Origin: a bacterium
Lineage (GTDB): Bacteria; ARS69
NCBI GenBank assembly: GCA_025774805.1
Contig: JALGZR010000071.1
Location: 1 to 30,024, forward strand
Reading direction: 5' to 3'
Length of the DNA stretch: 30,024 bases
Position numbers and translations under genes: made by a program. The number at the start of each line of letters is the position of its first letter. Positions within the stretch are counted from its first letter, which is position 1. Below the pieces are notes generated by a model. It saw nothing but the letters and a program-made list of their open reading frames with translations. It made no database searches and was not told the DNA's origin. This document shows, piece by piece, positions 4,841-26,220 of the stretch.

Positions 4841-5029
4841 CCGACCGGGGTCTCTCCTCCGGCTCGTCGGACGAGTCGTCGGGCGGTTCATCGGGCCGGG
4901 CGAGGAGAAGGGGTGATTTCGCCCGAGGCGAGGCCGGACACCCCCGCCGCCGTGCGGAGGTGAGTCATCGACGCAGCCGGGCGCGGCGTTGCCGCGGCCG
5001 CAGCGGGGCGTGGCGAGAGACGCCGACTA
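4841..5029 (-). repeat. Dispersed palindromic repeat, copy 1 (diverged)
   Basis: This is the most diverged of three related elements. It shares with the copy at 26041 a run like GAGGAGA-GGGGTG-TTTCGCCCGAGGCG (here 4901-4929, with single-base differences) and the block CGACGNAGCCNGGCGCGGC (4969-4987). It also keeps the hairpin GCGGC-GTT-GCCGC (4983-4995). Terminal repeats are eroded but GTCTCTC is still found inverted at both ends. The right end, CTA at 5027-5029, is the stop codon of the RNase E/G gene. With the rplU promoter it accounts for the whole 310-bp gap between rplU and the RNase gene. Confidence 0.7.
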
Positions 5030-6721
5030 CGGAAACCGGTCCGTGATGTCCCGGCCGAGGTGGTCGATCACCCGCAGGTCATCCCGCCGCATCTCCCGAT
5101 CCTCCCGGACGTCCACCGCCGCATCGTAGCGGTTCTCGAGGGCCGCGATCCGGTCGAACCCCTCTGCCAGCAGGTAGTCCGCACGGTCGGGGTGGACGCG
5201 CACCTCGACTCGCGCCAGGAGCGAGTTCCTCCCCACCCGGCAGATCGCCCGCTCCACCTTCGCGAACATCGCCTCCTCGTCGAGGATCCTCCCGGTTCCC
5301 TGGCACTCCGGACAGCTTACCGAGTGATAGTGCGACATCGCCGGCCGCACGCGCTGCCGCGTCATCTCCACGATACCGAGGTCGGAGACAGGAAACGTCT
5401 TCGACCGGGCCCGGTCCTTTCGGAGATGTCGCCGGAGCTCCTCCAGAACGGCGGCACGATTCTCCTCGCTCCCCATGTCGATGAAGTCGATCACGATCAA
5501 CCCGCCGATGTCACGGAGGCGAAGCTGGCGGGGAATCTCGCGCGCCGCTTCCAGGTTGCAATTGAAGATGGTCTCTTCCTGATCCGACTTCCCCTTGAAG
5601 CGGCCGGTGTTGATGTCGATCGCGATGAGCGCCTCCGCCTGATCGATGCAAATGTAGCCGCCCTTCCTCAGCCAGACCTTCCGGTGCAGCGTCTTTTCGA
5701 TCTCGGGCTCCACCTCGAAGGCGTCGAAGATCGGAATCTCGTCCTCGTAGAGCTCGATCCTCCCGGCCAAATCGGGGGAGACCGACTCCACGTACTCCAG
5801 AATCTGATCGCGCTCGTCCGGGTCATCGACGACGAGGCGATCGAATTTCTCGGAGAATACGTCCCGGATCAGTCCGGTGGTCAAGGTCATGTCCTGATGC
5901 ACGAGGGCGGGGGCCTTCATCCGCTCCGAGTCCCGCCGAATCTTCTCCCAGAGACCGTCCAGGTGGCGAATGTCGGAGGCGAAGGACTCCTCGGGCTCTC
6001 CGGATCCCACGGTTCGCGTGATGACGCCGGCGCCGGCCGGCCGGTGCTTCTGGATGATCTGGCGCAGGCGGGACCGCTCCGAGCGGTCCTCGATCCGCCG
6101 TGAGACCCCGAGGTGATCCATCCCCGGCATGAGCACCACGAATCGTCCCGGGAGCGTCACCTGGGCCGTCACGCGAGGTCCCTTGGTGCCGATGGGCTCC
6201 TTCATGACCTGCACCAGGAGCTCGTCGCCCTTCTTCAACTGCTGCTCGATGGGGACGCGGCGCTGGGCCTCCCGCCGGGAGCGGTCGTTGCCCCTTCCGC
6301 CGTTGTCGTCGTCGGAATCGAGCTCGAGTTGCTCGGGATCGGGGTGCAGATCGGAGACGTGGAGGAACGCCCCCTTGTCCAGACCGATGTCGAGAAACGC
6401 GGCCTGGATCCCGGGGAGGACGGCCGTGACCCTCCCCTTGAAGACGTCTCCGACGATCTGTCGCCGCTCGGGGCGCTCGATCGTGTACTCGACGAGCTCT
6501 CCGTTCTCGAGGAGCGCGACTCGGGTCTGACCCGGTCGCACGGAGACCACGATTTCCCGGTAGACGTCGTCCGGACCGCCTCCTCGACGCTTCGTCGCCG
6601 ACCTTCCCGCGCCGCGCGCGCGCCGGCGGCCGCTTCCTCGCGTCCGGGGCCGCTTGCGCCTCTCTTCGCCTCTCTCGCTCTTCCGGGTCTCCTGGGTCCT
6701 GGTCCTCAGTTCTCTCGCCAC
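5027..6721 (-). CDS. rng: Ribonuclease E/G family endoribonuclease
   Basis: Cuts single-stranded, AU-rich RNA in rRNA maturation and mRNA decay. The 564-residue protein has an S1 domain (about 85-195, GDVFKGRVTAVLPGIQAAFLD region), an RNase-H-like and DNase-I-like catalytic region with the two metal-binding aspartates Asp369 (AIDINTG) and Asp412 (VIDFIDM), and the Zn-link CPEC at 470-473. It ends soon after the small domain and lacks the long RNase E scaffold tail, so it is closer to RNase G. Residues 1-50 are an unusual Arg/Lys-rich extension. The S1 domain also carries an acidic insert (DSDDDNGGRGND). GTG start at 6721 with AAGGGG upstream. It is 11 bp after nadD and ends at the boundary of repeat copy 1. 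Confidence 0.94.
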   Translation of the reverse strand: MARELRTRTQETRKSERGEERRKRPRTRGSGRRRARGAGRSATKRRGGGPDDVYREIVVSVRPGQTRVALLENGELVEYTIERPERRQIVGDVFKGRVTAVLPGIQAAFLDIGLDKGAFLHVSDLHPDPEQLELDSDDDNGGRGNDRSRREAQRRVPIEQQLKKGDELLVQVMKEPIGTKGPRVTAQVTLPGRFVVLMPGMDHLGVSRRIEDRSERSRLRQIIQKHRPAGAGVITRTVGSGEPEESFASDIRHLDGLWEKIRRDSERMKAPALVHQDMTLTTGLIRDVFSEKFDRLVVDDPDERDQILEYVESVSPDLAGRIELYEDEIPIFDAFEVEPEIEKTLHRKVWLRKGGYICIDQAEALIAIDINTGRFKGKSDQEETIFNCNLEAAREIPRQLRLRDIGGLIVIDFIDMGSEENRAAVLEELRRHLRKDRARSKTFPVSDLGIVEMTRQRVRPAMSHYHSVSCPECQGTGRILDEEAMFAKVERAICRVGRNSLLARVEVRVHPDRADYLLAEGFDRIAALENRYDAAVDVREDREMRRDDLRVIDHLGRDITDRFP

Positions 6722-6732
6722 GGGGTACCCCT

Positions 6733-7320
6733 TCAGGAGAGGTACAGCCCCTGCGACCGTATGAATCGCTCCACCGGATCCGTGACCATGTATCGAATCG
6801 ACTCCCCGGCCCGTACGAGCCGGCGGATCTCGGTCGACGAGATCTCGACCGAGGGGGTGGGCAGTCTCGTGGCGCGTGTCTCGAGGGAGGGAGGCAGATC
6901 GGACTCCCCTACCCCCGGTCTCTCGAGGATCACCACGGTCGATTCATCGAGAAGGTCCTCGTGGGCCTTCCAGCTTTCGAGGTCGCGGGCTGAGTCCGCT
7001 CCCATCATCAGGAAATGCTCCGTGTCGGGTGGACTCGCCTCCCTCAGAGCACGGAGCGTTTCGATTGTGTACGAAGGACCGTCCCGGCGCAGCTCCACGT
7101 CCGACACCGCGAAGTGCGGGTTGTCGGCGCAGGCCAGATCGGTCATGCGGAATCGTTGCTCCGGAGAGGTGGGAACGCCCTCCTTGTGAGGAGGGACCCG
7201 GGCGGGCACGAAGAGGACTCGATCGAGGCGCAACAGACGATGCACGATCTCGGCCAAGAGAAGATGGCCGAGGTGTACGGGATCGAATGTTCCCCCGAAG
7301 ATCCCGAGACGCAGGCTCAT
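6733..7320 (-). CDS. nadD: Nicotinate-nucleotide adenylyltransferase
   Basis: Transfers AMP from ATP to nicotinate mononucleotide in NAD biosynthesis. The 195-residue protein begins with the nucleotidyltransferase motif GGTFDPVHLGH (9-19), then VPARVPPHK, the MGADS segment (106-110) and the C-terminal ISSTEIR motif (160-166), all at expected spacing. ATG at 7318-7320 overlaps the bamD stop (ATGA). The order bamD-nadD-RNase indicates one transcript. Many genomes have rsfS or proA next to nadD; neither is seen here. Confidence 0.95.
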   Translation of the reverse strand: MSLRLGIFGGTFDPVHLGHLLLAEIVHRLLRLDRVLFVPARVPPHKEGVPTSPEQRFRMTDLACADNPHFAVSDVELRRDGPSYTIETLRALREASPPDTEHFLMMGADSARDLESWKAHEDLLDESTVVILERPGVGESDLPPSLETRATRLPTPSVEISSTEIRRLVRAGESIRYMVTDPVERFIRSQGLYLS

Positions 7321-8093
7321 GTACCCTCCGTCTCCTTCTCCGCGATCCGGGCGAGGGCGTCCCGGGCCAGCGCGGCTTCCTCGCTGTCCGGGTAGTCCTC
7401 CATGACGCGCCGGTAGTGAGCGGCCGCGTCGTCCCATCTCTTCCGAGCCAAGTAAACCTCCCCGAGTCCGAGCCGGGCCTTCGGTGCCCAGCGCGTAGCG
7501 GGATGCTCTTTCAAGACGAACTCGAACTGGATCTTGGCGGATCGGTTCCGGCGCTGCTTCTGATAGAAGCGGCCGGCCTCGTACTCCCGACGGGCGAGGC
7601 GGTCGCTGCACTCGGCCAGCATCTCCTCGACCTCGGGCACGAACGAACTCGCGGGATAGTCCCGCTGGAAATCGGTGAGGGACCGGACCGCCTTCTCGGT
7701 CTCCGATTGGTCCCGGTTGTAGGGGTGGATCAGCGCGAACCGACAGCGCGTGACCTTGAACTTCGCCTCCTCCACGTAGGGTGAGGCGGCGTAGTCTTCC
7801 ACCACGTCCTGGTACTCCCCCTCGGCCAGGATGTACTCCTCCAGTCCGTAGCGGGCGTCTCCGAGACGCAGCTTCGCATAGGGGACGCGGGAGTTCCCCG
7901 GTTCCGAGCGAAGGAAGTGCTCGAGGACCTCGACCGCGTCGAAGTAGTCGTGCTCGGCCAACCGCGTGTCGGCGAAGGCCAACATGTCGTCCGGGGACGC
8001 GTCGGCGGGCAGATCGTTCCCGGCGCAACCGAGCGGGAATCGGACCAGGAGAACGAGGAGCGCGGCTCTCCCGGCAAAGGAACGGTGTCTCAT
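7317..8093 (-). CDS. bamD: Outer-membrane assembly lipoprotein BamD-like
   Basis: BamD is the essential lipoprotein partner of BamA in inserting beta-barrel proteins into the outer membrane. The 258-residue protein has a signal peptide ending at Cys23 (PLGC, a weak lipobox), then TPR repeats: ADTRLAEHDYFDAVEVLEHFL, then LGDARYGLEEYILAEGEYQDVVEDY, and further copies to about residue 250. The segment with paired TPRs at the C-terminus (VYLARKRWDDAAAHYRRVMEDYPDSEEA) fits YfiO/BamD; a general TPR lipoprotein cannot be excluded. It lies directly after two secreted or outer-membrane protein genes, which suits the role. Confidence 0.85.
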   Translation of the reverse strand: MRHRSFAGRAALLVLLVRFPLGCAGNDLPADASPDDMLAFADTRLAEHDYFDAVEVLEHFLRSEPGNSRVPYAKLRLGDARYGLEEYILAEGEYQDVVEDYAASPYVEEAKFKVTRCRFALIHPYNRDQSETEKAVRSLTDFQRDYPASSFVPEVEEMLAECSDRLARREYEAGRFYQKQRRNRSAKIQFEFVLKEHPATRWAPKARLGLGEVYLARKRWDDAAAHYRRVMEDYPDSEEAALARDALARIAEKETEGT

Positions 8094-8111
8094 CAGGCCT
8101 CGTCGGGCCGG

Positions 8112-9665
8112 CTATTCGCCGACGTCTCGATTCGAAAAAAAGATCAAGGCGAGCCCGGCGACGATTCCCCCGACGATGGCAGGTTCTACGAGAGGATGAA
8201 GCTTGCGCTTCCCGGAGGCCAGCGGCGCTCCCGGCTGCGGGTAGCTCGAGGACTTCGGGACCCGGGCCGCGGCCACCGTCTCGGTGTCCTCGGCCGCGCC
8301 GGCCCCCGTCCACGCGGGCGAATCTTCGCCCGGCCGGAGCAGTCGAAAACCGAGATCGACGGTGGACCGTCGCTCGACGCTCACCGGTCCGACCCAGCGG
8401 GCACGGGTGCGCCGGAGGATCTCGTGCTTCGAGGAGCGGATCTCGACCTCGAGAACGGGATGGACCCCCTCCCGCTCCGGTTCCGGGGCGGCTGCCGGCG
8501 CTTCCGTCTCGGGATCGATGCCGGAAGCCGTCGGCGCCGGGTCGCGGGTCTCCACGACCAGGCCCCATCCTCTCAAGCGGTCCGCGACCGCCGCCGTCAC
8601 CGTCTTGGCGGCTTCGTGAGCGGCCGTGCATCGAACCACCACCGTGTCTCCCCCATCGCGGGGAAAGCTCGCCAAGCCCTGATCGATGGCTTGGTTCGCG
8701 ACGTTCAGGTAATGCTCGCGGGGACTCCGGACCATGGTCCCGTCCGAATCGTCCGGCGACCGGTCGGGGGCCCAGCGGACCCCCAGCCGGTGGCTGGCGT
8801 CAAAGATCCCGTTGCGAAAAGAGTAATCGAGCTCCCATCCCGCTTTCACTCGGATTCCGATCCCGGCCGTCCACGGATCCATCGCGTCGTCCGCATCGGT
8901 GCCGAACAGGGCCCCCGATCGCAGAAAGAGACGCTCCCGGATTCCGTACTCGGCTCCCACCACCGCGCCCCACTCCGGTCCGTTTTCCCAGAGAACCTCG
9001 GAATCCACGCGAAGTTCCCCCAAGGTCGCCCCCAGGCCGGCCGCCGCCCGCGTGGGGAGTTCCTCGTCGGGGCCGTCCCCGTAGGGAAACGAGGGTCCCA
9101 TGTTCCGAATCGCGCCGGACAGCCTCCAGCCCTCCACGATCCGATAGGTCAGGCCGGCGTCCGCGGACCAGCCGCTCGCGTCCTCCTCCCCCACCGAGCT
9201 CCGGATCCAGCGAAGTCCGACCCCTCCGTCGAACGGGCCCAGGGCCCGGCCGTACGCGGCGGAGACCGCCAGATCGGACTGACCGACCTCGGCCTCGCCG
9301 GGCACGTTGCCGAAATCCCCCACCGTGAGTGAGCGCACCGCGACTCCCGCCGCGGACCGTCCCGCGAGCGGGAGCACGGCGCCGAGAGTGCCCGTCTGCA
9401 CGTCCGGCATCCAGGTGACGTAGGAGAGCGAGACGTCCCGGCCCCGCGTGCCGGCGAGAAGCGACGGATTGAGGAAGAGGGCGTCACTCCCGGAGGCCAT
9501 GGCCGTCCCGGCGCCCGCCATCGCGTCGATCCGCGTGGACCCGCCCAAGTTCAGGAACTGGTAGGCCGCCGTACCGGTGTCGCCGCCCGCCGCCGCCGGC
9601 CCGGCGCCGGCGCCGGCGCCGAGAAGCGAGGCGATACCCACGGCGAGAAGGAGCGATCGGTTCAC
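8112..9665 (-). CDS. PorV/PorQ-like outer-membrane barrel fused to an extra C-terminal domain with a membrane helix
   Basis: 517 residues. After a signal peptide (GASLLGAGAGAGPAAA-like, about 1-27) comes AYQFLNLGGSTRIDAMAGAGTA and DALFLNPSLLAG, the typical start of PorV/PorQ/UPF0164 barrels, in which the first strands carry an 'AMGGA...N PA' pattern. Alternating barrel strands run to about residue 305. Residues 314 onward are not barrel-like: a soluble segment (LNVANQAIDQGLASFP, VVVRCTAAHEAAKTVTAAVADRL), a proline/alanine/glutamate linker, a second beta-rich part, and a hydrophobic helix at about 493-510 (AIVGGIVAGLALIFF). I do not recognise that C-terminal part. GTG start (9663-9665) overlaps the stop of the upstream FlgD-Ig gene (GTGA). 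Confidence 0.78.
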   Translation of the reverse strand: MNRSLLLAVGIASLLGAGAGAGPAAAGGDTGTAAYQFLNLGGSTRIDAMAGAGTAMASGSDALFLNPSLLAGTRGRDVSLSYVTWMPDVQTGTLGAVLPLAGRSAAGVAVRSLTVGDFGNVPGEAEVGQSDLAVSAAYGRALGPFDGGVGLRWIRSSVGEEDASGWSADAGLTYRIVEGWRLSGAIRNMGPSFPYGDGPDEELPTRAAAGLGATLGELRVDSEVLWENGPEWGAVVGAEYGIRERLFLRSGALFGTDADDAMDPWTAGIGIRVKAGWELDYSFRNGIFDASHRLGVRWAPDRSPDDSDGTMVRSPREHYLNVANQAIDQGLASFPRDGGDTVVVRCTAAHEAAKTVTAAVADRLRGWGLVVETRDPAPTASGIDPETEAPAAAPEPEREGVHPVLEVEIRSSKHEILRRTRARWVGPVSVERRSTVDLGFRLLRPGEDSPAWTGAGAAEDTETVAAARVPKSSSYPQPGAPLASGKRKLHPLVEPAIVGGIVAGLALIFFSNRDVGE

Positions 9666-11356
9666 GATCCCCCTCTCCGGATGACCGCGACCTTTCGAAC
9701 CTCTTCGGCACCTTCGACCTGGATCCGGAGCAGATAGACTCCGGAGGCGACGCCCCGGCCGGCGTCGTTCCTCCCGTCCCACGCGGCGAGCCCTTGCCCC
9801 TCGAGGGTTCTCACCTGGTGCCCGGCGAGATTGTAGATCTCCACGCGCACCGACGCCGAGGACGACTCCGCGACGATCGAGACCTCGTCGCCCGCGTCCG
9901 GATCGAACCGGTTGCGATCGACGATCACGAGCTCGTTCTCGTGCGCGTTCACGAGGTTCAGCGAGATCGTCGTGGTGCCGGAGAGAACCGTGGCGGTCGC
10001 CCGGATCTCGACGTCCTTCGTCCCTCCACTCCTCGAGTTCGTGGGAGAGATCCGGTACTCGATCCGGTAGTCCCCGTCGTCCAGAGGGATCACCTCCTCG
10101 TCGCCCCGCGAGTACTCCGAGTCGAGGTTCGAGAAATCGGCCTCCAGGCTCAGTCCCGACGTGTTCCATGCGCTCAGGAGACGCACGAGATCTCCGTCCC
10201 GGTACGTTCCGTCTCCGTCGATCGGGGTCGTGGCACCCGCCATCGGGCGAGACGTGTCGTAGGCCACGATCCGGGAGCTCACCTCGGTGTGCCCGAACTC
10301 GTCGATCGCCCTCACCCGGATCGACCGGCGACCGGGCGATGGAGCGGCGTCGGCCACCACGACGCTCCAGGACACGGAGTCGGAGGGGGCCGAGACCGTG
10401 TCGGCGGGCACCCAAGTCCCGCCGCTGTCGAAGCTCGCCTCCACGGTCGCGACGAGGTGGTCGTCGAGCGCGGCGCCCCGCAGCGTCACCGGAAACGCCG
10501 TGGTCTCGAGGGTGTCCGATCCTGTCGTCACGAAGGTCGGCGCGTCGCGATCGAGACGAACCGTCTGGCGCTCCTCGTCGCGATTCCCGGCCAAGTCCTG
10601 CGCGATCGCCGCGACCTCGTACGCGCCCGAGGGGGCGTTCGAGCTGTCCGAGGCCAGGCCGTCCCAGACGAACTCGTGCTCGCCCGGCCCCGGCAGCACC
10701 CCGAGCACGTTCACCGCCGCCGAGTCCTGCCAGATCTGGACGGTCGTGGCCGTGGTGGAGTCGCCCGTGACCCGGATCGGCACGAGCAGCCGGTTGAACG
10801 GATCGAGAGCCGCCGGATCGAAGGGGCTCGGCCCCACCGGATTCCCCGCGTAACCCAGCTCGACGACCGGGGGCTCCGTGTCGACGACCACGTCCACCGT
10901 CGCGCTCGCGGTGTCGAAGGCCGACCCGTCGACTGCGAACAGCTCGAGGCGATAGGAGCCGTCGGGGGCCGTTCCGGGGGCGGGGCCCCATCCCTGTCGA
11001 AGGGGGACGTCGATCGGGAAGAGGGCGGGCCCGAGCGGCGTGGCCCACGTCGAGTCGTCCGAGGCCCGAACGACGGTCACGGTCACCTCGACCGAGTCGA
11101 CCGTCCCTCCGGGTGTGAAGAGCACCGTCGTCGAGTCGCGCACCCCGTCTCCGTTCGGGGAGAAGCGGGCGGCGAGCACGTCGTCGACGGTGATCTCCGC
11201 GGACGCCTCCGCGCGCTCGAACGCCCCCGCCCCGACGATCGAGATCAGCGCGGCGAGAACGATCGCCCCCCGGGCGTAGGCGTCAAGTCGCGCGACCCCC
11301 GGGCCGATACCCCTTCGAGAGCGCGGGAGTTCCAGCCGGAGGATGCGACACCCCAT
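9662..11356 (-). CDS. Secreted multidomain protein with FlgD-type C-terminal Ig domain
   Basis: 564 residues. A hydrophobic signal (GAIVLAALISIVGAGAF) is followed by ARFSPNGDGVRDS, the SPNGDG motif common at the start of FlgD-Ig and gliding-type domains. Several Ig-like or CARDB-like repeats follow (VDTEPPVVELGY, RLDRDAPTFVTT). The C-terminus is a FlgD_ig domain (VEIYNLAGHQVRTL ... GVYLLRIQVEG ... KVAVIRR), resembling C-terminal sorting domains in FCB bacteria. No ATG, GTG or TTG exists between the ATG at 11356 and the hydrophobic stretch, so that start is taken although it gives a 30-residue charged n-region; a non-canonical later start is possible. It ends in a GTGA overlap with the PorV-like gene. 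Confidence 0.75.
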   Translation of the reverse strand: MGCRILRLELPRSRRGIGPGVARLDAYARGAIVLAALISIVGAGAFERAEASAEITVDDVLAARFSPNGDGVRDSTTVLFTPGGTVDSVEVTVTVVRASDDSTWATPLGPALFPIDVPLRQGWGPAPGTAPDGSYRLELFAVDGSAFDTASATVDVVVDTEPPVVELGYAGNPVGPSPFDPAALDPFNRLLVPIRVTGDSTTATTVQIWQDSAAVNVLGVLPGPGEHEFVWDGLASDSSNAPSGAYEVAAIAQDLAGNRDEERQTVRLDRDAPTFVTTGSDTLETTAFPVTLRGAALDDHLVATVEASFDSGGTWVPADTVSAPSDSVSWSVVVADAAPSPGRRSIRVRAIDEFGHTEVSSRIVAYDTSRPMAGATTPIDGDGTYRDGDLVRLLSAWNTSGLSLEADFSNLDSEYSRGDEEVIPLDDGDYRIEYRISPTNSRSGGTKDVEIRATATVLSGTTTISLNLVNAHENELVIVDRNRFDPDAGDEVSIVAESSSASVRVEIYNLAGHQVRTLEGQGLAAWDGRNDAGRGVASGVYLLRIQVEGAEEVRKVAVIRRGGS

Positions 11357-11792
11357 GCCGAATACGCGCGACATCCTGGACCAGATGTTCGTCAACTTGG
11401 TCAAAGTCAAGCTCGACGCGGATATCCTGGAAAAAATAGTGCCGGTGATCGACGGTCTGCTGGAGCGTCTGAGAGGCGGGCTCAATCTCGAGACCGAGCA
11501 GGGCTGGAACCGCCTGCGGATCGCTCTCGCCGGCATGCTGGCCCACGGATGGGCGCTGGGCATGAACCCCTTCAACAGTCCCAATCGCCACTCCGACGGC
11601 GATCGCGTCGACGTGCGGGTGTCTCGGGACATCCTGGTCCCAATCGAAGTGCTCAAGTCTCTCCGTTACGTCAAGAGGGACGACATGGGGCGTATCGAAA
11701 AGGCTCTTTTCGAGCCGAGCGCCGAGGTCCGAATCAAGGAGCAGATCGACCTGATACTCCGGGAGATCGAGCACAAGCACTGGAAAGAGTGA
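11355..11792 (+). CDS. Conserved-looking hypothetical protein
   Basis: 145 residues, soluble, no signal peptide. I do not recognise the family. It begins with a helical segment (DILDQMFVNLVKVKLDADILEKIVPVIDGLLERL), has a tryptophan-containing middle (GWNRLRIALAGMLAHGW), a polar loop rich in Asn/His/Asp, then a segment DILVPIEVLKSLRYVKRDDMGRIEKALF and a charged helical end. Coding on this strand is supported by sensible amphipathic helices. The ATG at 11355 is favoured; another ATG at 11343 is in frame, and GGAGG (11338-11342) touches that earlier ATG and is 12 nt from the later one. Its start codon overlaps the start codon of the divergent secreted-protein gene. Confidence 0.7.
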   Translation: MPNTRDILDQMFVNLVKVKLDADILEKIVPVIDGLLERLRGGLNLETEQGWNRLRIALAGMLAHGWALGMNPFNSPNRHSDGDRVDVRVSRDILVPIEVLKSLRYVKRDDMGRIEKALFEPSAEVRIKEQIDLILREIEHKHWKE

Positions 11793-11825
11793 TTCGGCCC
11801 GCTCCTGCCCCGCTCCCCCCCGGCC

Positions 11826-12194
11826 TCACCAGCTCGGATCCCCGGTGTTGATGCTGTACTCGGTCCCGGGCGCGATGATCTTGTAGCGATCCCCCTGCGT
11901 CCGGACCATGAAACGGTTTCCGGTGATGGGACAGACGAAGGGCATCCTCTCCTGACCCTCTTCCAGAAAGGGCCTGAGCGCTTCGAGGTCCGCCGCGAAC
12001 TTCTTGTTCTTCACGAGGTAGAGCTGTTGCGCTTGGGCCAGAGCCAGCAGCCGATACTGGCACTGGTCCTCCAAACGGGCGGCCTCCGTCCGAATCCCCA
12101 TCGTGATCAGGAGAAAGGCCACCAGAACGAAGGCCAGAAGGCCGACCAGGAAGTCCAGTAGAGGATATCGGCCGCTTTCTTCCTGCTCTGCCAT
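11826..12194 (-). CDS. Membrane-anchored small protein, pseudopilin-like
   Basis: 122 residues. A short polar N-terminus is followed by one hydrophobic helix (about 11-33, LLDFLVGLLAFVLVAFLLITMG) and a periplasmic part with a helix (YRLLALAQAQQLYLVKNKKFAADLEALRPFL) and a small domain containing VCPITGNRFMV. That layout, including 'QLYLVKNKKFAADLEAL', resembles pilin-like proteins with a processing-independent anchor, but there is no GFTLIE-type prepilin cleavage site. Start ATG at 12192-12194 with GGAGAG close by; an upstream in-frame start at 12266 is rejected because it would begin upstream of the promoter at 12238-12266. It converges on the hypothetical gene at 11355-11792, 33 bp apart. 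Confidence 0.72.
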   Translation of the reverse strand: MAEQEESGRYPLLDFLVGLLAFVLVAFLLITMGIRTEAARLEDQCQYRLLALAQAQQLYLVKNKKFAADLEALRPFLEEGQERMPFVCPITGNRFMVRTQGDRYKIIAPGTEYSINTGDPSW

Positions 12195-12237
12195 CTCTCT
12201 CCGCCGGTTTCCCAGAGCTGGGGATTTCGACGATTCG

Positions 12238-15380: not shown

Positions 15381-15564
15381 CTTGACCTGCATCTCTCACC
15401 AGGCTCGTTGCGAGGCTCAAGGATCGTCGTGTCTGACGAGGAGATGGGGAGCTTTCGTCCGAGGCGGGGCCGTAGCCCCGTCGCAGGGCGGACGCGCCGC
15501 AACGACGAAGTCAGGCGCGGCGAGCCGCTACCGCAGCAGGGGCCGGTGAGAGATGCAGGTCAAG
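15381..15564 (-). repeat. Dispersed palindromic repeat, copy 2
   Basis: 184 bp bounded by a perfect 20-bp inverted repeat: CTTGACCTGCATCTCTCACC at 15381-15400 and its complement at 15545-15564. It aligns along its length with the copy at 26041 and shares with it an identical 34-base run (15459-15492). It contains two short hairpins: CGGGGC-CGTA-GCCCCG within that run, and GCGGC-GA-GCCGC at 15517-15528. The right arm runs 5 bp into the dppC gene and includes its TGA stop (15560-15562). The remaining 133 bp up to pspC (15248-15380) hold no feature I can support. Confidence 0.88.
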
Positions 15565-16492
15565 CCCGCGTCCGGCGGCGCGGAACGAACGAGGAGCGCC
15601 CCGCCCACCGCGGATCGAGAGCGTCGCGCAGCGAGTCGCCCAACAGGTTCAACGAGAGGACGACCGCGGCGAGAAACGCCCCGGGAAAGATCGAGATCCA
15701 GGGCGCGGTGCGGAGGAACTCCTTTCCCGCGGACACCATGGCCCCCCAGCTCGGCGTGGGAGGTTGGGCGCCGAGTCCGAGGAAGGAGAGACTCGCTTCG
15801 GCGAGGATCATCGTCGCGACTCCCAGCGTGAACGAGATCACGACCGGGTTGAGGCAGTTCGGGGTGACATGACGGGAGAGGATCCGCATCTCGCTCAGGC
15901 CCAGCGCCCGCGCGGCAGTAACGAACTCGAGCTCCCGTACGCGGAGCGCCTCCGAGCGCACGAGGCGCGCGACCTCCGCCCACCCGACGACGCCCAGCGC
16001 GACGAAAGTCACGCGGAGCCCCGGCTCGAACGCGGCCGTGATCCCGATCAGAAGAAGGAGTGAGGGGAACGCGAAGAACACGTCGGCAGATCGCATGACG
16101 ACCGTATCCACGCGTCCTCCCCAGTATCCGGCGAGGAGTCCCAGAGCTCCCCCGAGGAGGAGGGACACGGTGCGGGCCCCGAGGCCGATCGCGAGGGAGA
16201 GCCGGGCGCCGTGCAGCGTTCGGGCGAGCACGTCCCGTCCCTGGTGATCGGTTCCGAAGGGGTGGGCGGCCGAAGGGGGAAGCAGCCGCTCCTCGAGTCG
16301 CCCTTCCAGCGGTCCCGCGGGAGCGATTACGTCGGCCAGCGCGGCCCCCCCGACGATCGTCAGAAGAAGCACGCCCCCGACCCAGGCCACGGGATCGCGG
16401 TGAAGGCGGCCGAGGCCCCGGCGGGCGGGCTTGTCCCGGCCCCCCCCGATCCCGGAGGCCTGCCCGGGGGAGCTCTCCCGTACACCGGTCAT
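15560..16492 (-). CDS. dppC: DppC/OppC-type ABC transporter permease
   Basis: 310-residue inner-membrane subunit of a peptide/nickel-type importer. After a cytoplasmic start comes the first helix (VGGVLLLTIVGGAALADVI), then the family motif HPFGTDHQGRDVLAR (about 77-91), further helices, and the EAA loop ARALGLSEMRILSRHVTPNCLNP that docks to the ATPases. The C-terminal LGDSLRDALDPR is also typical. ATG at 16490-16492 overlaps the dppB stop (ATGA). Its own stop lies within the right arm of repeat copy 2. No OppD/OppF ATPase gene follows. Confidence 0.9.
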   Translation of the reverse strand: MTGVRESSPGQASGIGGGRDKPARRGLGRLHRDPVAWVGGVLLLTIVGGAALADVIAPAGPLEGRLEERLLPPSAAHPFGTDHQGRDVLARTLHGARLSLAIGLGARTVSLLLGGALGLLAGYWGGRVDTVVMRSADVFFAFPSLLLLIGITAAFEPGLRVTFVALGVVGWAEVARLVRSEALRVRELEFVTAARALGLSEMRILSRHVTPNCLNPVVISFTLGVATMILAEASLSFLGLGAQPPTPSWGAMVSAGKEFLRTAPWISIFPGAFLAAVVLSLNLLGDSLRDALDPRWAGRSSFVPRRRTRA

Positions 16493-19004: not shown

Positions 19005-20213
19005 AACTCGCCCGAGCCCCGCTCGTCCACGAAGACGAAAACCCGATTCGTGACGTCGTACTCCCAGATCTCGGTCGGGGGCCCTTCGAAACCGCCGCCT
19101 CGCAGCGTACGCCGGCTGGGAGGACCGAACTTCAGGAGGATCCGACCCCGGTCGGTCCTCCACCCGGGACGCAAGAAGGGCTCCCGGAAGAGACGCGCCG
19201 CCATCTGCATGCGCGATTGGATCTCCTCCAGGTACTCGTTCCCGGACCGGTCGGGGTCGAGGTCGTGGCGCGTCCAGAACTCCTTCACGCGCCCGGCCCA
19301 CTCGTCGTCCGAGGCCTCCTCGAGGAGCGCGATCTCCTCGGGCGTCCCGAGGATCTCGAAGACCTCGAAGGCGTCGGTACGGCGAAGAAAGAACCATTCG
19401 GGCGTCAGCTTGGCGTTGAAGGTGGCGTTTCGGGTCTCCTCGCGTTCGCCGCCGGAGTCGAACAGCCGCAGAGTCAGCGAGTGCTTCCCCAGAGCGAGGC
19501 GCTCCGAGGGAATCGGGATCTCCAGGGCACGGTGCCCGCCGTCGAGCGCGAGCAACGTATCCCGCTCGGCCAACACGCGGCCGTCCGGATCCTCGAAGCG
19601 CCACTCCAAGCGGCAGGCTCCGCGGACCCCGGAATCGGGATGAAGCGTGAACCGGACGACGTGTCCCTCCGCCCCGATCGGTATCTCTTGGCTCGGGTTC
19701 GGGACGGGACCGCTCTTCGTGTAGCGCACGAACCTCGGATCGCTCAACCCAATTCGCACTCCGCGAAAGTCGGCGCGCATGCGCCCTTCGACCCACGCGG
19801 ACGCGTTCGAGATCCGATCGGTCACCGAGATCCGTCCGAGAAACTCCCCACGAGGCAGCCGGAGGAGGCGGCGCCCCTTGGAGAACCGTTTCGGGCTCCG
19901 GGTCTCGTCGTAGCCCCGGCTCCGGACTCTCCGCTCCCAGACGTCTCCCGCGACCTGCCGACCGTCCCACCACGGACACGTCGTAGCGCGCCCGGTAGTA
20001 ACCGTCGCGGTGCCGGAACGTGAGCTCGGAATGGGGGATCTCCCAGTACACGTCGACCCGGATCGAGTCCGGACCGGAGGGGAGCGCGACCACGTTCGCG
20101 ACGAAGCGCGGTCGCTCCGTGGAGCGCACCGGAAAGTCGGGGGCGGGAAACGCCGCGGCCGGGGCGAGCGCCGTGAGGACGACTGTCCCGCCGAGAATGC
20201 GGCGCACCCTCAC
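18989..20213 (-). CDS. GWxTD-domain secreted protein, interrupted by a frameshift
   Basis: 1225 nt, one base more than a multiple of three. The 5' part, from GTG at 20213, encodes a signal peptide ([22 protein letters not shown]) and [30 protein letters not shown]. Around 19966-19970 the frame must shift by one base to continue as [24 protein letters not shown], and then to the end at 18989. The 3' part carries the GWxTD-type core [10 protein letters not shown] with [15 protein letters not shown], and the [11 protein letters not shown] motif. A G-triplet in GGTGGGACGG is the likely site; one G too many, or two bases missing, would explain it. Sequencing error and real mutation both fit. The GTG overlaps the ATPase stop (GTGA). 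Confidence 0.8.
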
Positions 20214-20938
20214 GGTCGCTCGGCCGAACCGGGTCCCGGAGCGATGGAGGACGGCTCTCCCCTCGTCTCGTCCGCCTCGATCCGGCCGTCCAGGAGCCGC
20301 ACGATGCGCTGCGCGCGCCGGGCGATGCTCCCCTCGTGGGTCACGACGATCAGCGTCTGCCCCCGGTCGTGAAGCCGACGAAAGAGCTCCATGATCTCCT
20401 TTCCGGTCTTCGTGTCCAGATTGCCGGTGGGCTCGTCGGCGAGCAGAATCGAGGGGGAGTTCACGAGCGCACGGGCCACGGCCACCCGCTGGCGCTGCCC
20501 TCCCGACAGCTCGCTGGGCCGGTGCGCCGCGCGATCCGCCAGTCCCACCCTCTCGAGGGCCTCCAGCGCCCGTTGCCGGCGGCGCGACGCCGGCTCACCC
20601 GCGTAGATCAGGGGGAGCTCCACGTTTCGCAGTGCGTCGGAGCGAGGCATCAGATTGAACGTCTGAAAGACGAAGCCGATCTCCTCGTTCCGGATCCGGG
20701 CCAACTCGTCGTCCGAGAGCTGGGCGACCGACCGGTCGCGCAGGCGATACTCGCCCGAGGTCGGGCGGTCGAGACACCCCACGATGTTCATCAGGGTCGA
20801 TTTCCCCGACCCCGACGGCCCCATGATCGCGACGTACTGGTTCGCGTCGATCGAGAGCGAAACGTCATCGAGAGCGAAGATGGACTCCTTGCCCATGTCG
20901 TACCGCTTCGTGACGTTCTCGACCTCGATCAGGCTCAT
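20210..20938 (-). CDS. LolD/MacB-type ABC transporter ATP-binding protein
   Basis: 242 residues with Walker [10 protein letters not shown] (40-48), Q-loop region [10 protein letters not shown] (89-98), signature [15 protein letters not shown] (144-158), Walker B ILLADE (164-169) with TGNLDT, and H-loop His201. The LMP and GNLD forms place it with LolD/MacB/FtsE-like ATPases that drive FtsX-type permeases in lipoprotein export, macrolide efflux or similar. No FtsX-type permease or MacA-type adaptor is seen in the window. ATG at 20936-20938 overlaps the tolC stop (ATGA). Confidence 0.92.
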
Positions 20939-22254
20939 GGGGCGGGCTCCGGCACCGGGGTGTCCCCGATCGCGTTGCGCAGAGCCGACTGGGCCAGCCG
21001 CGCGTCGTAGATGGTCGTGATCCGGTCGGTCTTGGATCGGGTCAGGTTTACCTGTGCGTCGATGACGTCGAGAATCGTGCCCTCCCCGATCTTGTACCGC
21101 TCCTGGGCGAGCCGGAGATCCTCCTCCGAGGATCGCACCGCCTCCTCGGCCACCTCGATGGACTGGCGCGCGATCTCGAGGTCGAGGTACGCCTGCCGGA
21201 CTGCCAGCAGGACGTCGCGCCGCGTGCTCTCCACGGTCCGGCGCGCCGCCAAAAGGTCGGCCTCGGCCCGGCGGATGCGCGACTTCGTCAGGAGTCCGTC
21301 GAAGATCGTGAGGTTGACCTGCGCTCCGTAGCTCCACTGGATGTGCTCGTCGTCGAAGTCCTTCAGCTCCACGTTGTAGTAGTTGGAGGCGTAGAAGAGG
21401 TCGAGGGAGGGATAGCGACCGGACTTCGCGAAACTGACCCCGGAGCGACCCGCGTCCAGGCCCGCCTCCGAGGAGAGCAGGGCCGGGTTCACCTCCAACG
21501 CCCGGCGCGAGGCATCGTCGAGCCCCATCGCCTCCGTGATCGCGAGGTCTTCGTCGGCCAGCTCGATCTCCTCGAGGGGATCGAGTCCGAGGGAGGCCGC
21601 GAGGATCGCCTTGCCGATCGCGAGATCCCGGTCGGCCCGGAGCTCGGCGAGCCGGTTGTTCGAGTGGTCCACCTCGGCCTTGTAGACGTCGGCCTGGGTC
21701 GCGGCGCCGAGGTCCTTCATCGTCCGCGTCTTCTTGAGCTGCTCAGCCGACAGGCGGACCGCCTCTCGCTGCACGTCGACGAGCGCCTTCCGCTTCCCGA
21801 CCTCGAAGAACCGGCGCTGCGTCTCCAGCATGACGTCCTGCATCGCCTTGCGGTGGCTCGCGCGCGCCGACTTCCGCCCGTGCGAGGCCTGCCGGTAGCC
21901 GGACACGTTTCCGAGCCCGTCGAAGAGGGTGAGGCCCGCGCTCAGGTTCGCGCTCCAGGTCTCTCCGAAAAAGGCCGCGCGGTCGGGGACGAAGACGGGC
22001 TCCTCCGGGTGAGACCAGGTTCCGGAGACCCGGGCGCTCGGCAGAAACCCCGACCAGGCTCCCAAGACGTCGGCGTCGGCCCGCTTCAGTCGGGCCTCCG
22101 ACTCGATCACCACCGGGTTGTTCTTCAGCGCCAGTCCGATGCAGGCCTCGAGGGTGAGACGCTCGGCGAAGGCGGGCGCCGACGCGACGGCGACCAGCGC
22201 CCCCGCGAGGACCACGCCTGCTCCCCCGCCCCCGCGGACAGGTACCATCCTCAT
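20935..22254 (-). CDS. TolC-family outer-membrane efflux protein
   Basis: 439 residues. Signal peptide ([18 protein letters not shown]), then [31 protein letters not shown], the usual start of an outer-membrane efflux protein, with two similar halves of long helices; the second half starts near [35 protein letters not shown]. Periplasmic helices and barrel strands alternate as in TolC. ATG at 22252-22254 has GGAGG 6 nt upstream. The next gene down is an ATPase of the MacB/LolD type, so a tripartite exporter is likely, with the missing permease and adaptor encoded elsewhere. Confidence 0.9.
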
Positions 22255-22358
22255 GAAACACCTCCGACAACGGTTCCGGGGCCGGGGGGAAGTCCGACCC
22301 ATGATTCGAGTTACGAGCCCACACCGGGAGGGGTTGCACCGGGTGTCGGCATCGGTGA

Positions 22359-23162
22359 TCAGCTTCCGGCCGCCCAGGCGCCGAACATCCGACCGCCGAA
22401 GACGAGCAGCGACCGCAGGACCCAGAGGGTTCCGGAGATTCCCCACCCGGCCGTCGACGAGACCCGGTACGCCACCCTCGCTCCGACCGCGAGGAGGACG
22501 AGATTCCAGAGGGAGAAGACGTCGAGCAGATCCAGAAGAATCGCGGGCAGCGAGTTGTAGTCGAGCCCGGGGAAGAGGATTCCCGGTCCCAGCGTCACCT
22601 CCATCGTGTCCGAAGCGCGAACGAGCAACGATTTCACCAGGACTCCCAGCGCCAGGGGAACGAAGGCGAGCGCGTAGACGGTGAGGGAAAGCCGGAAGCC
22701 CGGGTCGGCGCCGGCGATCTTCGCGACGAGATGCAGGACCGCCGTACCGACGAAGAAAACGACCACGATGGTGATCACCGCCGGAGCGACTTGCCCGGCG
22801 ATATCCCCGATCGTCAGGGAGTCCGGATCGGGAAGCGAAGCGAGGGTCTCCTCGATGGCGTCCTCCGGAGCGCCGAAGCGCTCCATGGTCCGGATCGTGA
22901 TCTCGGCTCCGAACTCGAGCTGCTGGGCGAGCTGGATCCACGTCGACAGGGCGACAAGGACAACGATCAGCCCGAGGACACCGATCCATTTCGGCCGGGG
23001 CCGGAGCCCTGCAAACGCCTCGGCCGGGCGCGTGAACAGGAGCGGCACCGCGCCCAGTCCCCCCGCCGCCACGGGTTCGCTCGGCTCCGGTGTCCCGGAG
23101 TCGGGGCGGGCGGCCCCCGGATCGGCGGGGAGAGCCTCGGTCCGGCGATCGTCGGAGCTCAT
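22359..23162 (-). CDS. Yip1-domain membrane protein
   Basis: 267 residues. A Pro/Ala-rich cytoplasmic segment (about 1-45) is followed by LLFTRPAEAFAGLRPRPKWIGVL and five or so membrane helices, the usual form of the bacterial Yip1 family (PF04893). The loop after the first helix carries QQLEFGAEITIRTMERFGAP and LPDPDSL, as in other family members whose P-P/E-rich loop precedes the second helix. Function is not known for bacterial members. ATG at 23160-23162 has GGAGG 6 nt upstream. It is 104 bp before tolC and may be cotranscribed with it; I see no good promoter in that gap. Confidence 0.82.
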   Translation of the reverse strand: MSSDDRRTEALPADPGAARPDSGTPEPSEPVAAGGLGAVPLLFTRPAEAFAGLRPRPKWIGVLGLIVVLVALSTWIQLAQQLEFGAEITIRTMERFGAPEDAIEETLASLPDPDSLTIGDIAGQVAPAVITIVVVFFVGTAVLHLVAKIAGADPGFRLSLTVYALAFVPLALGVLVKSLLVRASDTMEVTLGPGILFPGLDYNSLPAILLDLLDVFSLWNLVLLAVGARVAYRVSSTAGWGISGTLWVLRSLLVFGGRMFGAWAAGS

Positions 23163-23246
23163 TGGGAACCTCCGGAAGCGATGATGGACGAGAAGGAGAG
23201 CGTTGTGTGCCGGAAAGCGTACCTCCGGATCCGCCTTCCTGTCCAA

Positions 23247-23273
23247 GCGGTTTCGAGGGACCTCCGAAACCGC
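23247..23273 (-). terminator. Perfect 9-bp stem-loop in the gap between tonB and the Yip1 gene
   Basis: GCGGTTTCG (23247-23255) pairs perfectly with CGAAACCGC (23265-23273) across a 9-base loop. It lies 77 bp after the tonB stop. There is no T-run on the minus strand after it, so a Rho-independent terminator is only possible, not shown. The rest of the 187-bp gap holds nothing I can name. Confidence 0.4.
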
Positions 23274-23349
23274 GCTCCGTGCCGCATCGTGGGGAAGAGG
23301 ACGTGCCACGGGCGGGCGCCCGCGGGATCTCCCGCCGGAGAGACGGAGG

Positions 23350-23958
23350 TCAGCGATTCAGCTTGAAGACGATCCTCTGAAGGACGGGGGCCGCGACCGG
23401 GTTTCCGCTCATCATCGCCGGCTCGAACTCCCACTGCCGGACGGCTTCGACGGCCGCATCGTTGAACACGGGAGAATCGGAGGAGATCACCTCCACTCGG
23501 GTTACCCGTCCGCGCTCGTTCACCCAGACCTTGAGAACCACCTCCCCCTCCATTTCGGCCTGCTTCGCCATGGTCGGGTACTCGGGGAACGTGGCTTTCT
23601 TCGGCTTGGGCGGGTCGTCGTACACGGCAAAGTCCCCCCGCCTCGGAGGTGGAGGTGGCGGGGCGTCGGGGAGATTGTCCATGTCAAGGTCGGTGTCATC
23701 GATCGTCTCCTCTTCCTCGACATCCTCGTCGAGGGTCTCGACCGGGATCTTCGGCCGCGCGATGTCCTTGGGGGGCGGCGGGATCTCGATCTCGGGCGGG
23801 ATCTCGATGACCTCGAGCTCGTCGGTCTCGGTCTTGTAAGGATTGATCTGGATCGTCGGCATGATCGCGAAGGCGAGAACGTGGAGCGCCAGCGAGATGG
23901 ACAGCGCGATGTCGAAGTACTTCCGGTACTTCAGCTTGAACTCGGTATTCGCGATCAT
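23350..23958 (-). CDS. tonB: TonB-type energy transducer
   Basis: 202 residues. One N-terminal membrane helix (DIALSISLALHVLAFAIMP, about 16-34), a proline- and acid-rich periplasmic linker (IPPEIEIPPPPKDIARPKIP and LPDAPPPPPPRRG), then a TonB C-terminal domain with MEGEVVLKVWVNERGRV, VEAVRQWEFEP and a final strand VLQRIVFKLNR. It spans the periplasm and passes the inner-membrane proton motive force to outer-membrane receptors. ATG at 23956-23958, GGGGAG upstream, 3 bp after the second exbD. Together with exbB and two exbD genes it forms a complete transducer. Confidence 0.93.
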   Translation of the reverse strand: MIANTEFKLKYRKYFDIALSISLALHVLAFAIMPTIQINPYKTETDELEVIEIPPEIEIPPPPKDIARPKIPVETLDEDVEEEETIDDTDLDMDNLPDAPPPPPPRRGDFAVYDDPPKPKKATFPEYPTMAKQAEMEGEVVLKVWVNERGRVTRVEVISSDSPVFNDAAVEAVRQWEFEPAMMSGNPVAAPVLQRIVFKLNR

Positions 23959-23961
23959 GGC

Positions 23962-24384
23962 CTATCTCCCCTTCTCGAACTCCGCCGTGAACGAGACCCG
24001 GGTGGCATTGGCCTGCTTGAGCTCCTCCATCACCTGGTCGACGCGCCGGAACGGGACCTGCTTGTCGACGTTGAACGCCACGATGATCGCGGGGTTCGCG
24101 ACGAGCTTGCTGTAAATGATGGACTCGATCTGCTCCGTGGCGACCAGGTTGTCGTTGATGCTGATGTTCCCGGCCCGGTCGACCCAGATGTGGCTGACGC
24201 GCTCGCGGGGGACTTCCACGCCGGCTTCGGCCTTCGGCATCTCGACGGGGAGCCCGTCCTCCAGCTTGAAGATCGTGGTCACCATGAAGAAGACCAGCAG
24301 GAGGAAGACGATGTCGCCCATCGAGGCCGTCGGGATCGACTGTCCCACCTTCGATTTCCGCTGGAATTTCCCGGTCTTGGCCAT
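23962..24384 (-). CDS. exbD: ExbD/TolR-type biopolymer transport protein (second copy)
   Basis: 140 residues. Basic cytoplasmic start, then a single membrane helix with the key proton-path aspartate at residue 24 (TASMGDIVFLLLVFFMVTT), then a periplasmic domain (LPVEMPKAEAGVEV ... VNPAIIVAFNVDKQVPFRRVDQVMEELKQA-like). Only about 30% similar by eye to the neighbouring exbD at 24415, so the two are old paralogues rather than a recent copy. ATG at 24382-24384. Located 30 bp after the first exbD and 3 bp before tonB. Confidence 0.92.
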   Translation of the reverse strand: MAKTGKFQRKSKVGQSIPTASMGDIVFLLLVFFMVTTIFKLEDGLPVEMPKAEAGVEVPRERVSHIWVDRAGNISINDNLVATEQIESIIYSKLVANPAIIVAFNVDKQVPFRRVDQVMEELKQANATRVSFTAEFEKGR

Positions 24385-24414
24385 GGGTGCGATCGCCCTC
24401 CCCGGTCGGCCGTC

Positions 24415-24831
24415 CTACTCCACGATCTCCATTCCCTTGATCGAGATCTTCTTCGCCTCGGCCAGTTGAAGCTCGTCGAGCACGTTCACCATCGTCTCGT
24501 AAAAGGAGTCGGGGTGGACCTTGAGCTGGCAGATGAGGTTTTCGTTTTCGAGAATTCGGCGACGGACCTCACCCTCGATCGAGGGAATCCCGAACGGGAC
24601 GCCGTTGATGGTCACGAGGTTGTTCGCCTGGATCTCGATGTTCAGGATGTTCTTCTGACTGACCCGCGCGGTCTCCGACGCCTGCCCGGGAAGCTGCATG
24701 GGAAGCCCGAGCTCCTGGGAGAAGATCGTGCTGACCAGGAAGAAAATGAGGAGCAGAAACGCGATGTCCGCCATCGACGCGGTGGAGATGTCGTCTACGG
24801 TCCCCTTCTTGCGTCGGAACTGGACGGCCAT
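24415..24831 (-). CDS. exbD: ExbD/TolR-type biopolymer transport protein (first copy)
   Basis: 138 residues. It has the same layout as the following gene: basic N-terminus, membrane helix with Asp22 (TASMADIAFLLLIFFLVSTIF), and a periplasmic domain (LPMQLPGQASETARVSQKN, VDELQLAEAKKISIKGMEIVE-like end). The Asp in the helix is the residue needed for proton flow in ExbD/TolR. ATG at 24829-24831 with GGAGG 5 nt upstream. It follows the ExbB/TolQ gene by 67 bp. Confidence 0.93.
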   Translation of the reverse strand: MAVQFRRKKGTVDDISTASMADIAFLLLIFFLVSTIFSQELGLPMQLPGQASETARVSQKNILNIEIQANNLVTINGVPFGIPSIEGEVRRRILENENLICQLKVHPDSFYETMVNVLDELQLAEAKKISIKGMEIVE

Positions 24832-24898
24832 GCTGTCCTCCTTCTCCGGCCTCCCCGGCCCGGGAACGGGGCGGCTCCGCTCCCACCCGCCGGGGCGA

Positions 24899-25807
24899 CT
24901 ACTCCACCCCCGCCTGCTTCACCCCGAGATCGACCAGGGTGTCGACGAGGTCGGCGGACGTCTCCTGCATCTCGATCACGAACCGGTCGATCTGGGACAC
25001 GAAGTAGTTGTGCCCGATCGACATCGGGATGGCCACGATCAGACCGCTCATCGTCGTCAGAAGCGCCTCGGAGATACCGGAGGCCACGAGCTTCGCGTTT
25101 ACCTGGTCGGCGGCGGCGATGGCGTCGAACGCCGAGACCATCCCGGACACCGTCCCCAGGAACCCGAGCAGCGGAGCCACGTTGGCGATCGTCGCCAGGA
25201 CGAGCAGCCCCCGCTCGAGGAAGGAGAGCTCCACGACTCCGGCGCTCTCGATTGCCTTTTCCGTCGCCTCGATGCTGATGGTGGAGCGCCGCAGCCCGGC
25301 GTGCAGGATCGCGGGAATCGGTCCGCGAGTCTTCTCGCACACCTCTATGGCCGCCTCGATACCTCCCTCCCCCTTGAGCGCGGAGAGAACGCGGTTCATG
25401 AGGGTCCGGACGTTGGTGCGCGCCCGGCCGAGAGTCCAGAAGCGCTCCAGGATCACGGCGACCCCGATCACGAAGAGGATCAAGAGCGGCCACATGAAGA
25501 CGCCGCCCTTCTGGAACTGCTCCACGGCGCCGCTCGAGGCCATTCGATCCAGGAAACCCGTCTCGGTCTCCTCGACCACACCGAGATCATCGAAGCCGGT
25601 TCCCCAGTTCGCCAGCGAGTCGACCGCGGCGGAATCGACGGCTGCCGAGTCCATGGGAGCGGTCTCCATCGTCGACTCCGCGGCGATCCCGCTCTCCGCG
25701 GCCGTACCCTCGACCGCTTCCTCCTGGGCGAAGACCGTGGCGCCCAACACTCCGGCAAGGCACGCGACCGCCATGAGTGAGGTGAACTTCTTCCGCTCCA
25801 ATCGCAT
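24899..25807 (-). CDS. exbB: ExbB/TolQ/MotA-type proton channel subunit with N-terminal signal and low-complexity segment
   Basis: 302 residues. A cleavable-looking signal (LMAVACLAGVLGATVFA, about 10-26) precedes an acidic Ala/Ser/Glu segment with AAVDSAAVDS. The conserved part starts at about 90 with a first helix (FMWPLLILFVIGVAVILERFWTL) and has the two coupled helices (ERGLLVLATIANVAPLLGFLGTVSGMVSAF and ALLTTMSGLIVAIPMSIGHNYF). ATG at 25807 is chosen because AAAGGAG lies 8 nt upstream; an earlier in-frame ATG at 25924 has no ribosome site and would begin only about 12 nt into the predicted transcript. It heads the exbB-exbD-exbD-tonB set. Confidence 0.92.
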   Translation of the reverse strand: MRLERKKFTSLMAVACLAGVLGATVFAQEEAVEGTAAESGIAAESTMETAPMDSAAVDSAAVDSLANWGTGFDDLGVVEETETGFLDRMASSGAVEQFQKGGVFMWPLLILFVIGVAVILERFWTLGRARTNVRTLMNRVLSALKGEGGIEAAIEVCEKTRGPIPAILHAGLRRSTISIEATEKAIESAGVVELSFLERGLLVLATIANVAPLLGFLGTVSGMVSAFDAIAAADQVNAKLVASGISEALLTTMSGLIVAIPMSIGHNYFVSQIDRFVIEMQETSADLVDTLVDLGVKQAGVE

Positions 25808-25942
25808 CGAAGGTACTCCTTTGGCTTCCGAGCTGGCTCGGACGCGGTCGGATCCGGCCGGCGCTGCGCGCCATTCCGAGGATCCGAGGGTCCGGGATCG
25901 GGATCGGGATTCCCGTTTCTTCATAAGGAAATGAGACCTCGC

Positions 25943-25972
25943 ATTTTAGGAACGAGCATTTCGAAGTGTCAA
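25943..25972 (-). promoter_or_regulatory. Sigma-70-like promoter for exbB-exbD-exbD-tonB
   Basis: On the minus strand a perfect TTGACA (25967-25972) is followed after 18 bp by TAAAAT (25943-25948), a near-consensus -10. The start near 25936 gives a leader of about 130 nt before the exbB ATG; the leader contains GGGATC three times in tandem (25892-25911) and could fold. This is the strongest promoter-like signal in the window. Confidence 0.82.
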
Positions 25973-26040
25973 CCCGTTTCCCCCGGCGGAACGGGGCTCC
26001 GACCTCACGGCGCGAGCCGGGCCGGCCCTCGGGGCGGCTT

Positions 26041-26220
26041 TAGCCGGCATTTCTCACCAGGCTCGTCGCGAGGCTGCGGATAGCCGTGTCTGGTGAGGAG
26101 ACGGGGTGCTTTCGCCCGAGGCGGGGCCGTAGCCCCGTCGCAGGGCGGAAGTACCACAACGACGAAGCCAGGCGCGGCTTCGCCGCTGCTGCAGCAGAGC
26201 CCGGTGAGACATGCAGGCTA
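26041..26220 (-). repeat. Dispersed palindromic repeat, copy 3
   Basis: 180 bp with imperfect terminal inverted repeats of 24 bp, 3 mismatches: left arm 26041-26064 (TAGCCGGCATTTCTCACCAG and on), right arm 26197-26220. Shares an identical 34-base run with copy 2 (26116-26149) that holds the hairpin CGGGGC-CGTA-GCCCCG. A second hairpin, GCGGC-TTC-GCCGC, is at 26074+100 (26174-26186). The last three bases, CTA at 26218-26220, are the stop codon of the GWxTD gene on the minus strand. Between the element and the exbB promoter (25973-26040) I see nothing else. Confidence 0.88.

Follow-up and report, generated by a model that had tools for sequence, protein, structure and literature searches.

Small gene-less elements with IS1380-type ends share a folded core across bacterial phyla, suggesting that the fold helps them spread

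The window, that is, the whole stretch of 30,024 nucleotides that was analysed, contains three repeats, each of which touches a gene on the reverse strand: an RNase E/G-family gene (5027–6550), an ABC permease gene (15560–16492) and a GWxTD-domain gene (26218–27852). In all three cases the end facing the upstream gene is also the stop codon of that gene (Table 1). The first-pass annotation had described three real repeats, and this is borne out, with copies 2 and 3 as full-length elements of 180 bp. Copy 1 is diverged (74–77% identity to the other copies over 61 bp) and keeps its blocks in order. Identity between copies 2 and 3 is 88% over 101 bp; they do align end to end as had been noted, but their similarity exceeds the 34-base identical run that was singled out, as the whole 180 bp aligns. 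Both are near-palindromes that fold into one long hairpin (copy 2, −126.4 kcal/mol, z −10.9; copy 3, −121.5 kcal/mol, z −8.8). The fold of copy 1 is no better than that of shuffled sequences (z −0.7). The three copies also have the same orientation, as annotated. Genome-wide, orientation is mixed (24 plus, 23 minus), and the shared orientation in the window is therefore chance, as is the even spacing of 10.5 kb. The end triplets of copy 2 are TGA and TCA, not TAG and CTA (15383–15385 and 15560–15562), a symmetric change. Two other copies (L003 and L027) have TGACC at one end, and these TGA variants are still stop codons.

Table 1. Positions of the repeats, their parts and the overlapping stop codons in the window, with examples of short forms elsewhere in the same genome (G000)
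Feature	Position	Strand	Remark
Copy 1	4841..5029	+	degraded remnant of the element
TAG stop codon of the RNase E/G-family gene	5027..5029	-	formed by the right end of copy 1
Copy 2	15383..15562	+	full-length 180-bp element
Copy 2 structured core	15402..15543	+	matched by R1, a model made from elements of other phyla (cmsearch, E 2.4e-6)
TGA stop codon of the ABC permease gene	15560..15562	-	formed by the end of copy 2
Copy 3	26041..26220	+	full-length 180-bp element, type A ends
Copy 3 left terminal inverted repeat, TAGCCGGCATTTCTCACCA	26041..26059	+	
Copy 3 structured core	26060..26201	+	cmsearch with R1, E 6.8e-10; alignment A4
Copy 3 core parts: sub-terminal CGTCGCGAGG / CTGCAGCAG module and central GAGGC...GTCGCAGG hairpin	26060..26201	+	
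Copy 3 right terminal inverted repeat, inward TAGCCTGCATGTCTCACCG	26202..26220	-	
TAG stop codon of the GWxTD-domain gene	26218..26220	-	formed by the end of copy 3
Short forms (examples)	G000:C8:97610-97692, C63:101313-101367, C40:8803-8873, C105:40906-40970, C229:13744-13821		

The window copies belong to a family of very small, gene-less transposons with roughly 300 members in the home genome, and the possibility that only three copies exist is thereby discarded. The commoner end sequence (type A, TAGCCYGCATNTCTCACC) is located at CTAG. Allowing up to 3 mismatches, its terminal motif CTAGCCYGCATNTCTCACC occurs 552 times in the home genome and 11 times when reversed as a control, hence about 270 type-A elements; a second end type, B, occurs 66 times (1 in the control), corresponding to about 33 elements. 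A search of the home genome with copy 3 gave 329 candidates, leading to 40 scored places. In 1.18 Mb of fetched stretches there are 68 paired elements of 52–206 bp (mode 180), about 40 of them of 172–182 bp and the rest mainly of 52–96 bp, together with 51 structured cores; as these stretches were picked because elements are present in them, the densities are upper estimates. Gene calls behind the context counts came from a home-made model trained for the analysis. By these calls only 1 of the 68 lies inside a gene, in line with the earlier statement that no protein is encoded. Many of the elements (26 of the 68 pairs) are short forms of 52–96 bp, which have the same ends but have lost most of the core. 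In two places (G000:C80:32454-32487 and G000:C8:21975-22008) elements lie end to end with one common CTAG, as if the end of one copy had been the target of the next.

The elements read TAGCC...GGCTA and are flanked by C and G, that is, CTAG. Among 146 well-preserved ends, the four border bases are C in 127, T in 115, A in 113 and G in 137, and the commonest border pair is CTAG on both sides. In elements with CTAG altered on one side only, the change is mostly in the base outside TA (L107, L106, L136 and similar). As this base departs more often than those inside, a TA duplication, with G...C as part of the element, would be favoured over a 4-bp CTAG duplication. Two external cases, TTAG/TTAG and CTAA/CTAA, are compatible with a duplication of 4 bp.

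The tetranucleotide CTAG is itself rare: in the 1.18 Mb of sampled stretches it is found 285 times, with 3514 expected from composition, an under-representation of about twelve-fold. A TAG at a gene end that lies within CTAG is one of the few such sites and is regenerated by insertion, which is why the ends supply stop codons. For 24 of the 68 elements, the end facing the upstream gene is its stop codon. CTAG sites fall on stop codons as often with an element as without one (43:45 with, 65:80 without; Fisher p 0.59). Neither is there a bias in orientation to genes (20 sense, 29 antisense, p 0.25), a link between element strand and GC skew (22 of 47) or a departure of gene-pair context from background in the 1.18 Mb. 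The earlier term "3'-end element" is thus apt as a description of the three window copies, but target-site availability explains the overlap.

The end pattern is found in at least 115 stretches from many phyla, and a sub-terminal module is common to the elements of 182–184 bp among them. Full-length HMM matches in other phyla came largely from shared ends, and the ends were therefore stripped before any claim of core homology was made. Twelve cores were aligned without their ends, none from the home genome, the sources being Gammaproteobacteria, a deltaproteobacterial MAG, Acidobacteriota, Gemmatimonadota, an actinobacterial MAG and G039. All twelve have CGT..C.AG...CGCAG.AG and a central G.AG...TA..GT.GA motif. 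The core of about 140 nt has conserved stems and internal loops, with CGTMGCGAGG paired to CCGCAGYAG and a central hairpin of GNA-GGC and GTC-GA. Compensatory changes occur at 37 of the 49 predicted pairs, and the covariation score of 0.566 exceeds both shuffled controls (0.218; 0 of 500 as high) and slid controls (at most 0.161). The covariance model R1, which contains no rows from the home genome, matches copies in that genome at E values of 1e-6 to 1e-15 and recognises window copies 2 and 3 as well as most intact copies; copy 1 is given only 11.9 bits. It also matches copies with different ends in G002, and Nitrospira and Eisenbacteria loci. R1 scores generic long hairpins up to about 45 bits, so matches lacking the sequence motif (L291–L295, L305, L306, L163, L210 and others) were treated as generic hairpins and excluded from the counts; R1 matches 17 of 193 genomes, and in 12 of these the inspected loci contain the motif. 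In 17 rows outside the model that were aligned without structure, 24 of 26 pairs have compensatory changes, although these rows were found with the model; the rows of alignment A4 were also located with it, and that set is not free of selection for structure. A core HMM trained on the home genome matched only G002 when run against other phyla.

The motif-bearing genomes are labelled Pseudomonadota (including a 'Deltaproteobacteria' MAG), Acidobacteriota, Gemmatimonadota, Nitrospirota, Eisenbacteria and, for one MAG, Actinomycetota. The core is homologous in several phyla, at least six by the labels of the records, with binning errors possible for single MAGs. R1 finds no trace of it in IS1380 elements. 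Judging from these searches, the core is more than an IS remnant. A second class of palindromes of 244–249 bp has type-A ends and interiors unrelated to the core model (L122, L125, L164, L165, L179, L188 and L195, from Gammaproteobacteria and Acidobacteria); R1 does not match the 246-bp palindromes with the same ends.

The ends point to a partner. The IS1380 family (NF033539, Pfam PF13701) consists of relatives of piggyBac. When plasmids were searched with both ends, transposases of the IS1380 family came up in Pseudomonas and Bradyrhizobium, flanked by TAGCCCGCATTTYTCACA, which is near-identical to the element ends. In a gammaproteobacterial genome that is also the source of an element (G213, element L124), an intact IS1380 transposase of 486 aa (NF033539, E 1.9e-121; L309) is flanked on both sides by identical CTAGCCCGCATTTCTCACCA, which is the terminal inverted repeat of the element. 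Another IS1380 in G213 lies between TAGCCCGGATTATTCATGAA and TAGCCCGGACTATTCATGAA, ends that resemble type B (L320). Eisenbacteria RS_13_32 has an intact IS1380 with one matching end seen. The first-pass annotation had proposed a search for a transposase with matching ends, and its suggestion of a MITE is borne out by this partner transposase with identical ends, the hundreds of dispersed non-coding copies, the inverted ends and the CTAG/TA target. The home genome has no intact IS1380 transposase, only a C-terminal fragment in a 131-aa frame; there are no recognisable ends near this fragment (L259:1501-1839, G000:C17:1747-2085). Most core-bearing genomes have no detectable intact IS1380 transposase, and mobilisation by this family is therefore what we infer from shared ends, with the match of ends within one genome seen elsewhere, in G213. 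End pairs 1–3 kb apart were considered as candidate autonomous elements, but they enclose genes for amidohydrolase, SURF1, DnaB and others and were set aside as chance pairs.

The same core is found with differing terminal repeats, such as TAGCCCGGATATCTCACGAGATTC (G141), TAGCCCGCATTATTCATGAGGGTT (G039) and TAGAAGCGGTTTCATAAGTC (G109), among others. In G171 it has TAGCCCGGATATTTCATGAACTT ends, which match the ends of an IS1380 at L254. Of 47 cores in the home genome, 37 have type A ends and 10 type B. These comparisons show that one core is joined to IS1380-type ends that differ from genome to genome, and to two end types in the home genome.

Between lineages, departures from Watson-Crick pairing are G-U in 108 cases and A-C in 34 (p 3.6e-10), with strands oriented partly by a model that allows G-U; in sets aligned with MAFFT only, the ratios are 39:12 and 27:6. 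In all 43 cases compared, the forward strand has the better fold, with DNA parameters too, and the reverse strand has half the consensus energy or less and no G-U excess. A one-strand asymmetry of this kind needs selection on a single strand, and a symmetric cruciform is therefore no explanation. Among the 47 resident copies of the home genome, G-U and A-C are about equally frequent (58 and 56), so pairing is not conserved once a copy is in place. At the level of sequence comparison, this shows constraint on one strand between lineages and neutral decay of residents, a pattern that fits a selfish element whose fold serves its own spread and not host regulation. We infer that it is in source copies, as they spread, that the fold is important. 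The "structured RNA" proposed earlier is thus supported as far as covariation and one-strand constraint of the core across phyla go, but resident copies have no such constraint.

Taken together, the element is probably a miniature transposon that is not autonomous, depends on DDE transposases of the IS1380 family acting in trans and has a core fold kept for propagation. Its ends of about 20 bp are IS1380 terminal inverted repeats, it lies at CTAG, and no protein is encoded by it. One strand would fold in single-stranded form, more likely as RNA than as single-stranded DNA, while the source copy propagates; selection would keep the fold in the spreading lineage only, and inserted copies would drift. 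The mobilising transposase may have been lost from the home genome, or its gene may be missing from the assembly. A broader proposal, made tentatively and with the balance somewhat against it, is that this is a new class of selfish nucleic acid: a structured RNA or single-stranded DNA module of about 140 nt in at least six phyla, SINE-like for DNA transposons, which repeatedly swaps its terminal repeats and is thereby moved by one IS1380 transposase after another.

An alternative is that these are ordinary IS1380 MITEs, internal-deletion derivatives with a functionless palindromic interior; the cores would then be alike only through descent or transfer, and hairpin-templated correction of the arms would maintain the pairing. 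In favour of this, the ends match IS1380, residents decay neutrally, and palindromes with the same ends but unrelated interiors do exist (the 246-bp class). Arm correction would, however, erase non-complementary loops, yet GTA/A, GA/GCA and GCA/GA recur across phyla; nor does this account sit well with the excess of G-U over A-C on one strand, with the absence of the core from IS1380 elements, or with a core that is kept as the ends change. We regard it as unlikely. Rather better placed, but still on the unlikely side, is a variant of the miniature-transposon reading in which folded single-stranded DNA is selected instead of RNA, for example a one-strand hairpin recognised by the transposase or a replication protein. 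G-T wobbles and sheared G-A pairs are tolerated in DNA too, the preference for the forward strand holds with DNA parameters, and the lack of gene-orientation bias is as expected without a promoter reading the element; against this, IS1380 DDE transposition is expected on double-stranded DNA, and the element strand is unlinked to GC skew.

A role of benefit to the host, in which gene ends have recruited the element as a terminator or as a hairpin that stabilises mRNA, would agree with the very stable hairpins and the 24 of 68 elements that provide stop codons. It is highly improbable given the equal stop-codon frequency of element-free CTAG sites, random orientation, background gene-pair context and unconserved pairing in resident copies. 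Hardly credible is an IS630/Tc1-type or REP/RAYT-type element. TA at both borders, within CTAG, speaks for such an element (the TA flanks of copy 3 had given the first hint of IS630), as does a palindromic, intergenic, high-copy repeat. The home genome, however, has no DDE_3 and no Y1 (TnpA_REP) transposase, the ends do not flank the IS630 loci of 20 other genomes in which they occur, and they are IS1380 terminal inverted repeats.

Compared with IS1380 insertion sequences, the miniature transposon proposed here has identical terminal inverted repeats of 18–20 bp and the CTAG context, but a core and no gene, where the insertion sequence has a transposase of about 480 aa and no core. ERIC and Correia repeats are also flanked by TA, and like REP/BIME they are high-copy intergenic palindromes; no sequence relation to them was found, the phylogenetic range of the element is much wider, and REP depends on Y1 transposases, which the home genome does not have. 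SINE-like parasites offer an analogy only: a folded core kept in the source lineage, decaying residents and dependence on the machinery of other elements. Unlike SINEs, the element has DNA transposon ends and no reverse transcription, and its RNA form is putative. Bacterial MITEs with IS-type ends include MITEPye1 (IS1182-type; PMC11578231) and TIMEs (Tn3-type; PMC4133298). These are likewise short, non-coding, intergenic, able to form a stable hairpin and equipped with inverted ends common with an autonomous element, but they belong to other transposase families, and the interior of the present element is a covarying core found across phyla with different ends.

An exact 24-mer search of a genome contigs collection gave no match, and no Rfam 15 family reached its gathering score; weak matches to miRNA and other low-scoring families were rejected, as they fit any long hairpin. 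No report of IS1380-type MITEs or of the core motif was found in the open-licence literature, a scope that leaves out most subscription journals and ISfinder. The first-pass annotation had likewise not recognised a described family.

The usual view of MITEs is that they derive from insertion sequences by deletion and have no function. In the present family the interior is conserved across phyla and the ends are variable, and constraint is kept between lineages and lost in residents. A common folded core across phyla suggests that the fold helps DNA parasites to spread. It allows two proposals to be put to the test: that a non-coding core takes an active part in spreading a parasitic element of bacteria, and that such a core has itself spread horizontally or very anciently. 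The analysis also explains why the elements so often provide stop codons. With the covariance model, intergenic repeats that have had no explanation can be annotated by the hundred in many phyla without cultured members. It is worth noting two smaller differences among the elements. The central internal loop in the home genome is GA (5') / GCA (3') (window 26118–26142); most other lineages have its mirror, GCA / GA. Elements of Bryobacterales that have type-A ends (L112, L149, L158, L163, L178 and L210) share a sub-terminal motif of their own near the left end, GCGAGGCGAAGTG, and may have a third type of core.
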